In this document: piece after piece, positions 9,859 to 19,464 of the stretch | Layout: each line of letters begins with the position of its first letter | Position numbering within the stretch: position 1 is the first letter of the stretch | Source: Bacteroidales bacterium | GTDB taxonomy: Bacteria; Bacteroidota; Bacteroidia; Bacteroidales; UBA932 | Assembly (NCBI GenBank): GCA_017548445.1 | Contig: JAFYZZ010000069.1 | Location: 1 to 26,589 of the forward strand | Reading direction: 5' to 3' | Length of the DNA stretch: 26,589 nucleotides | Position numbers and translations under genes: made by a program | The notes under the pieces: generated by a model | Database searches by the model: none | What the model was told of the DNA's origin: nothing | The model's input: only the letters and a program-made list of their open reading frames with translations

Positions 9859-9931
9859 TCTGGGTGACTCGACTTGAACGAGCGACCTCCTGGTCCCTAA
9901 CCAGGTGCGCTACCAACTGCGCCACACCCAG
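9859..9931 (-). tRNA. tRNA-Pro with anticodon AGG
   Basis: A full 73-base cloverleaf is visible on the minus strand. It has acceptor CTGGGTG/CACCCAG (7 perfect pairs), D arm GCGC/GCGC, anticodon stem CCTGG/CCAGG with loop TTAGGGA, and T arm GCTCG-TTCAAGT-CGAGT. The discriminator is A, and CCA is not encoded. C1-G72, A73 and G37 fit proline identity. The loop gives anticodon AGG at positions 34-36, which reads CCU, and possibly CCC/CCA if A34 became inosine. An unmodified bacterial tRNA-Pro would normally have GGG, TGG or CGG. A TATCTTTG promoter box lies upstream and a strong terminator downstream, so the gene looks expressed. Confidence 0.92.
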
Positions 9932-18499: not shown

Positions 18500-19456
18500 T
18501 CAGCGCAGGGGACGGTGCGCGGCGGCGCGGGAAGCCTTCTCGTTCTCGCGGATGCGGGGGAGCTCGGAGGGGACGGCGTACACGTCCAGGAAACGCTCCC
18601 AGATGATTTCCACGGCGGCCGGCGCCGGGTGCACGAGGTCCTCGGCGTAGAACCGGTAATCACGCAACTCGTCCATCAGGATCTCATACGCCGGGAAATA
18701 CTCGACATTGGCATTTTCGCCGGCGGACGGAAAAGCGGAGCCGGAATTGGTTTTTCGAGCTACCGCACGAAAAATAATTCCGGGCCGCCCGTCTGGAAGA
18801 CTCCGTCCGTCGGCAAGAATGTGCTGCACTGCAAGGTGGAGCGTGGATTTGGAAACGGTATTCGCGCGGGCGCCCTCGCCCAGGTGCCGGATAGGGGAAA
18901 CGGTGAAGATGAAACGCCTCTCCGGATGCGCCTCCACGATGCCGCGCAGCAGTTCCGCGCACTCGTCCGTAGAAAGAAGATCGTGCGCGAACTCGCGCGC
19001 GGGACGCTTCAGGCAGTTCGCGACCACGGGCCGGCCGGGCCGCCCGATCGCGCGCCACACATAAGCGGTGCCGAGGGAAAGGATGACCGTGCCGCACTCC
19101 CGCCACGCTTCCGCCGCCTCGGCGAGGGCGGCGTTGGCCGTCTCGAGGAACTCCGCGGCCGTGCTCCGGGCGAAGGAAGTATGGTGCCAGAAACTGCCGG
19201 TGCGGCCGTCGCCGGCGCCCAAAGGCACGCAGTCCTCCTCCCCGAACGGAACGGGACGGTCCAGCCTTGCCACGGCGTTGGCGATGGACGCGGCATTGTA
19301 GAGGGTGCCGAAAGGATTCGCAAGCACGCGGAAACCCGCGGCGGACATCTTCCGCCCGATTTCGTCGGCGAAACAGCTGCCCAGCAGGCAGACGGGACTG
19401 TCCAGGCTCACGGAAGCGGATCCTTTGCCGCAGATAACTTCGGTCGTCAGTTTCAT
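18500..19456 (-). CDS. GSCFA family protein carrying an in-frame palindromic insertion
   Basis: The 318-residue protein has the eponymous motif LLGSCFADEIG (GSCFA at 26-30), NPFGTLYN, FWHHTSFA, VILSLGTAYVW, FTVSPIRHL and the end motif VEYFPAYEIL. This SGNH-hydrolase-like family is common in Bacteroidota and has no firm function. Residues of about 217-249 (from RSLPDGRPG to GENAN) interrupt the usual transition from the helix SKSTLHLAVQHILADG to VEYFPAYE. They are encoded by a palindromic DNA element (18720-18813), and the reading frame stays open. Start 19456 was chosen because longer frames overlap the divergent nucleotidase. A TAAATTTG box lies just upstream at 19472-19465. Confidence 0.85.
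   Translation of the reverse strand: MKLTTEVICGKGSASVSLDSPVCLLGSCFADEIGRKMSAAGFRVLANPFGTLYNAASIANAVARLDRPVPFGEEDCVPLGAGDGRTGSFWHHTSFARSTAAEFLETANAALAEAAEAWRECGTVILSLGTAYVWRAIGRPGRPVVANCLKRPAREFAHDLLSTDECAELLRGIVEAHPERRFIFTVSPIRHLGEGARANTVSKSTLHLAVQHILADGRSLPDGRPGIIFRAVARKTNSGSAFPSAGENANVEYFPAYEILMDELRDYRFYAEDLVHPAPAAVEIIWERFLDVYAVPSELPRIRENEKASRAAAHRPLR
18720..18813. repeat. Palindromic element inserted in frame within the GSCFA gene
   Basis: Outer arms CCGGCGGACGGAA (18720-18732) and CTCCGTCCGTCGG (18801-18813) are inverted copies with 11 of 13 positions matching. Inner arms GCGG/CCGC and CCGGAATT..TTTTTCG (18741-18757) with CGAAAAA..AATTCCGG (18768-18783) continue the stem around a 10-base loop, with small bulges. 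The whole segment could fold into one long hairpin. It encodes about 31 residues that do not belong to the expected GSCFA pattern. The behaviour recalls Rickettsia palindromic elements; exact borders and any target duplication are not resolved. Confidence 0.6.
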
Positions 19457-19464
19457 ATTCTTCG

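Follow-up and report, generated by a model that had tools for sequence, protein, structure and literature searches.

What kind of DNA is the long palindrome that lies inside a GSCFA-family hydrolase gene of a Bacteroidales bacterium, and how does it come to be there? The question is raised by a contig stretch of 26,589 nucleotides (JAFYZZ010000069.1), referred to here as the window. An initial annotation had described a long hairpin lying in frame within an intact gene of this family, and our results agree with this description. The gene product matches PF08885, the frame stays open across the insert, and the predicted DNA fold of positions 18700-18830 reaches -37.5 kcal/mol compared with -21.2 +/- 3.2 kcal/mol for 200 dinucleotide shuffles (z -5.1), none of which folded as well. 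The RNA fold of the segment is likewise better than that of all 200 shuffles (z -4.3). The predicted fold comprises three parts: the outer stem, a small side hairpin (GTCTTCCAGAC), and the long core hairpin (Table 1).

Table 1. Features of the GSCFA gene and of the palindromic segment within it (positions in the window)
Feature	Position	Strand	Basis and remarks
GSCFA-family hydrolase open frame	18503..19459	-	PF08885, 222 bits; ATG at 19456 is the likely start
Inserted segment, 34 codons, about residues 217-250	18710..18811	-	Absent from homologue P0002 (alignment)
Palindrome outer arm	18712..18731		Pairs with 18802-18821, 20 nt, 85% complementary
Palindrome outer arm, partner	18802..18821		Pairs with 18712-18731
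Inner inverted arms	18741-18754 / 18770-18783		14 nt, 86% complementary
Core hairpin, family-wide part, TTATTTTTCG ... CGAAAAACCAA, with A/CC asymmetric internal loop	18733..18791	-	Model R1, 76.2 bits, E 8.3e-21; this copy is among the 33 used to build R1
Side hairpin GTCTTCCAGAC (element strand), between outer stem and core hairpin	18791..18801		Sequence and DNA fold

The borders of the insert were placed by alignment with the homologue P0002, which is 87% identical to the window protein (BLASTP). The span from LHLAV to YFPAYE comprises 42 residues in the window protein and eight in P0002. The earlier claim that the hairpin adds residues between two adjoining segments therefore stands, and only its size (about 31 residues, or 94 bp) needs correction, because the alignment gives 34 residues or 102 nt. 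The peptide DGRSLPDGRPGIIFRAVAR lies in this insert. In the AlphaFold2 model of the protein (mean pLDDT 72.6, from an alignment of 42 sequences), residues 219-248 form the longest of five segments with pLDDT below 50; they coincide with the insert and are flanked by a helix (197-217) and a strand (252-254). The insert is a disordered stretch in this predicted structure. The best five Foldseek matches are putative hydrolases or GDSL-type proteins, none of them reaching E 0.001. Elsewhere in the window, a tRNA gene was identified at 9859-9931 on the minus strand (Rfam RF00005, 62.8 bits); across the five sources searched with Rfam at the gathering score, this tRNA was the only match.

Related genomes contain further copies. 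In the GSCFA gene of a reindeer MAG (locus L002, genome G001), a copy 91% identical to that of the window lies in reverse orientation, and the search output for it shows no stop. The same residues without DNA palindromy were not found in the relatives; this homologue, too, has palindromic DNA. The element was detected in all four relatives' genomes reached through loci L001-L004, strongly in G001, G003, and G004 and as weak fragments in G002. With matches accepted up to E 10, 62 pieces of the 1.6-Mb genome G003 were found. A 95-nt consensus matched eight of 61 genomes of the genus of G003, and the window copy used as query matched six of 61 genomes in the genus of G001. The core hairpin was searched for with a covariance model (R1; 59 positions), built from 33 copies aligned out of 38 distinct cores, a set that left out L060, whose pattern match was due to chance, and L091 on its second strand. 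With this model, the core was found in 30 of 200 sampled genomes of a relative's genus (E 0.01), with at least 27 copies each in G003, G129, and G286; the window itself has a single core place, matched on both strands, and no second copy. At the family level, the 95-nt form occurred in one of 99 genomes, which was G003 itself. R1, run with stricter filters than in the genus search, matched three of 199 genomes of the family (E 0.001; two of these by single weak matches) and one of 296 genomes of the phylum, again G003. Plasmid and phage records gave no match at E 1e-5. The copies found are in Bacteroidales MAGs, and the segment belongs to a dispersed repeat family that is concentrated in one gut Bacteroidales genus and almost absent farther out.

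Members of this family are built from common modules. The TTATTTTTCG ... CGAAAAACCAA hairpin with its A/CC asymmetric internal loop is common to the copies, and the element ranges from the core of about 58 nt through a short form of about 95 nt to a long form of roughly 130-140 nt, some copies consisting of core plus tail. Among 116 distinct cores, the GTCTTCC side hairpin (the GTCTTCCAGAC landmark) lies within 40 nt 5' of the core in 39 (fetched DNA), a CAACGCCAACGC-like tail is present on 38, and 13 represent the long form with one additional hairpin. Three copies in G003 (L152, L153, and L157) are composite, in that a structured module of some 100 nt stands in place of one core arm; the GSCFA homologue P0003 seems to contain a translated module of similar kind.

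Base pairing in the core is maintained across copies. Of 528 cells examined, 97.2% are paired, and changes on both sides of a pair (54 cells) far outnumber changes on one side (three cells). Four of five covariation measures exceeded all 500 shuffles, which ignore the relatedness of copies; the fifth, counting further pair types, was no better than shuffles (277 of 500). Because this covariation is strong and very few G-U intermediates occur in the core, it suggests that the hairpin is kept or copied at the DNA level. The outermost arms vary from locus to locus, yet the two arms of one copy match each other. In 51 copies the mean matching score was 8.41 versus 6.33 +/- 0.16 for permuted arms, and in an overlapping set of 73 copies, collected with a second pattern, it was 8.33 versus 5.71 +/- 0.15. 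None of 5000 permutations reached either mean, although, when partners were ranked, the 3' arm of the same copy came first in just 13 of 51 and 25 of 73 copies. Such matching may mean that the element entered hairpins that were already there, or that the flank was copied in inverted form.

Many copies occupy genes without breaking the reading frame, and between them they use several frames and either orientation. The regions read in detail were picked from the top matches, which means that the in-frame share is not an unbiased rate, and the scope comprised copies that keep the frame. The first set comprised 43 merged places, with two copies counted twice via the overlapping loci L094 and L098. 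In-frame copies with Pfam support were identified there in PrmC, RmlD, DapF (in both G004 and G003), TrpC, IspG, ManA, AtpG, and MBOAT genes, together with a radical-SAM UPF0004/TRAM protein, a U32 peptidase whose insert follows the last domain, and an OMP-like protein that holds two copies; the GSCFA copies of the window and of L081/L002 add to these. A second set of 40 further loci yielded TrpC, AtpG, and DapF (two each), IspG, PrmC, RmlD (with two copies), MBOAT, ManA, an ABC-F-like ATPase, GSCFA, and an OMP-like protein (L206) just under the family cut-off (25.8 bits versus 27). The third set contributed MetH-like and MutY-like genes, a citrate lyase ligase/CitG gene in two genomes, and a nucleotidyltransferase. 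Open frames lacking a Pfam match at 0.001 were not counted as genes (those around L131, L129, L086, L103, L110, L126:2691, L094, L154, L210, L213, L224, and L216), nor were L119, L197, L201, and L155, where the element lies solely upstream of the domain. The OMP-like frames, in which the element also lies upstream, were retained since the sequence to either side of the insert is common to G003 and G275.

Comparison with PDB structures indicates where such inserts fall. Only a few chain residues separate the segments flanking the insert in AtpG, in which the peptide AAESSRRAAGNYFSDKFAEKP lies, and in TrpC; in RmlD there are none, and for DapF the alignment ends at the insert. The RmlD protein of L090 (G001) has three extra segments relative to 1vl0 (22-71, 247-295, and 324-362), of which only the middle one is the element. 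Some frames are more complex. The citrate lyase ligase/CitG frame of L163:850-2901 (G138) is open across three core hairpins, two of them near each other and one reversed, and in the same gene of G129 (L160:1-1644) a core hairpin has CHSERSEES-type repeats on both flanks. One AtpG match (L248, G206) shows a TAG stop in the search output. The notion that the element has unusually many open frames was discarded: the consensus is open in five of six frames, yet about 40% of sequences in an order-1 Markov control reach at least five (2.4% with mononucleotide shuffles reach five or more).

The insertion sites themselves recur. At the site corresponding to that of the window, 114 of the 120 best GSCFA homologues could be parsed (the window's own protein, P0001, included); 39 of them have at least 20 residues there, and the rest have 6-18. 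When the peptides are compared by eye with the element's translated frames, some ten of the 39 long inserts are this element, in the frame of the window (P0001, P0008, and P0031), in another forward frame (P0005, P0006, and P0047), in reverse orientation (P0042, P0045, and, in a different frame, P0056), or as a composite (P0003); the insert of P0045 is the same as that in L002. Others among the long inserts are different repeats (VIPGLTRNPFP..., CHPERSEGS..., and SLPADAGTGFG...). Of 17 GSCFA loci in genomes, 15 were parsed: G275 and G001 have this element, G206 has another repeat, G195 has 24 residues, and the other eleven have 4-20. Of 25 AtpG loci, 21 could be parsed; the loop in them is 26 to 95 residues long, its sequence differs by genome, and like the GSCFA site it also hosts unrelated repeats. 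Some other inserts at these two sites, with peptides such as CHPERSEGS, HSGLDPES, and FRPERSVAEES, presumably resemble CGTC-type REPs.

For eleven genes, two or more genomes have the element in the gene, site correspondence having been judged by eye. At the same site, frame or orientation differs between genomes in eight of them (GSCFA, DapF, TrpC, IspG, PrmC, RmlD, MBOAT, and ManA), which implies that the sites were filled repeatedly or that their contents were replaced; the frame is the same between genomes in AtpG, the OMP-like gene, and citrate lyase ligase.

Taken together, the repeat family, its in-frame places, the insert-free homologues, the varied orientation and frame, the covariation, and the predicted disorder make it very probable that the segment belongs to a dispersed element, palindromic and mobile, whose copies survive in frame at tolerant sites, the present one as a disordered loop of the protein. 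In this explanation we infer that the element moves actively, that it is translated, that the insert is neutral, and that the hairpin acts as DNA. A mobile hairpin would land in many places of the genome, and copies in genes would persist only where the frame is kept open and the protein can accommodate 20-40 added residues, for the most part in flexible loops. If only tolerated in-frame copies survive, the same few permissive sites in core proteins would be occupied again and again, and such landing pads would be filled by this element in varied orientations and frames as well as by unrelated repeats. For the GSCFA enzyme, translation of the element would give a disordered loop with no part in catalysis. 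More tentatively, the nested DNA hairpins might insert into or beside one another, have their stems rewritten per locus at the DNA level, and repeatedly load about ten conserved landing pads in the core proteins of a single gut Bacteroidales lineage. Coding palindromes, read in various frames and in either orientation, would then be extending its proteome, and the form that moves or serves as template would be single-stranded hairpin DNA.

The variety at recurrent sites could also have arisen by turnover, if each site was occupied once ancestrally and later diversified by recombination between copies, nested insertion, and partial deletion. This is a possible reading, though we regard it as somewhat doubtful. 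It accords with AtpG, in which G003, G217, and G275 share one frame of the element and apparent remnants occur in G004 (a partial 5' part) and G248 (the tail without the hairpin). Nested elements, such as the long form with its extra hairpin and cores beside other palindromes, are in line with it as well, and content exchange by recombination at an old occupied site could also produce differing frames or orientations. However, at the GSCFA site the element is missing from 12 of the 15 parsed relatives, which have 4-24 residues there, and an orientation or frame that differs in eight of the 11 recurrent genes also weighs against a single ancestral occupation. Ordinary loop variability with a palindrome by chance is extremely improbable: the length of the site does vary within the GSCFA family, but no shuffle folds as well and the same DNA recurs in many genes and frames. 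Retention of the hairpin for a function, either as an RNA structure that regulates or terminates transcripts or as a loop useful to the protein, appears improbable. The strong covariation and the conserved A/CC internal loop would suit such a role, but both orientations and several frames occur at the same protein site, unrelated repeats occupy the same sites, the scarcity of G-U intermediates is unlike RNA selection, and no Rfam family apart from tRNA reached the gathering score in the five sources.

That the element is a known REP, GTAG- or CGTC-tagged and moved by a RAYT transposase, also seems unlikely. Dispersed hairpin copies do occur in the same genomes as RAYT-like Y1 proteins (about 290-320 aa), and known REPs can be intragenic (PMC3733652). 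Against this, no invariant tetranucleotide abuts the 116 cores (CAGA in 32, GAGA in 11, and CCCG in 11 on one side; TCCG in 41 and TCCA in 29 on the other), and the core of about 58 nt and whole element of about 95 nt exceed the 20-40 bp given for REPs in that paper. Within up to 450 nt of eight RAYT-like genes the core was not seen, their flanks containing other palindromes or none recognised as this one. RAYT-like Y1 genes are present in 143 of 200 genus genomes, in 26 of 30 with the core and 117 of 170 without it, a difference too weak to decide. With no flanking match at the eight genes and weak co-occurrence, RAYT is not favoured as the mobiliser. The RAYT-like proteins of L111-L118 have an HxH motif and several of their genes are flanked by other palindromes; tandem repeats lie upstream of the gene in L113. 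Read by eye, the 58-nt form seems to have CCTC-like direct repeats on its flanks, and in one AtpG site just the hairpin appears to be missing. No IS or other mobiliser could be tied to the element in the sampled relatives.

The reading as a mobile element tolerated in frame has practical consequences. Extra peptides in GSCFA, AtpG, DapF, TrpC, and other proteins should be regarded as repeat DNA and not as functional domains. Repeated use of the same protein sites in varied frames offers natural replicates for studying insertion tolerance, permissive sites, and hairpin movement.

Our literature search returned no report of such elements in Bacteroidales. The Rickettsia palindromic elements (RPEs), according to PMC3767692, are palindromic repeats of about 100-150 bp that occur in many copies inside ORFs without breaking the frame, and orthologues may carry different RPE groups near the same site. 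The initial annotation had suggested a Bacteroidales counterpart of these, and the dispersed copies, their in-frame positions in Pfam-supported genes, the insert-free homologues, and the disordered stretch in the model bear this out. Like the RPE and its Wolbachia counterpart, the Bacteroidales element is a repeated palindrome inside ORFs with the frame intact. In length, its short form of about 95 nt lies slightly below and its long form of roughly 130-140 nt within the 100-150 bp given there (PMC3767692), whereas some copies consist of the 58-nt core plus a tail. The host belongs to another phylum than Rickettsia and Wolbachia. The Bacteroidales element further differs in its modular nested hairpins, in outer arms that match per locus, and in its use of the same core-gene sites in other frames and orientations.

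GTAG/CGTC REPs are short palindromes of 20-40 bp, mostly intergenic and in some cases within coding genes (PMC3733652). The element shares with them palindromes that lie inside coding genes, but it is larger, the 4-mers abutting its core include no invariant GTAG or CGTC, and the core was not found beside the eight RAYT-like genes. MITEs and the RU elements of enterobacteria, the latter reported as intragenic, are small non-autonomous repeats (PMC10969869 and PMC2759123). Outer arms that match within one copy beyond permutation resemble the terminal inverted repeats of MITEs, whereas no cognate transposase was found and no target duplication established for the Bacteroidales element. By analogy, the element would work like RPE and intragenic REP elements, a resemblance that does not imply family membership. 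Palindromes that code for protein are on record in Rickettsia and Wolbachia, and REPs within genes in other bacteria; the Bacteroidales family would be an independent one.
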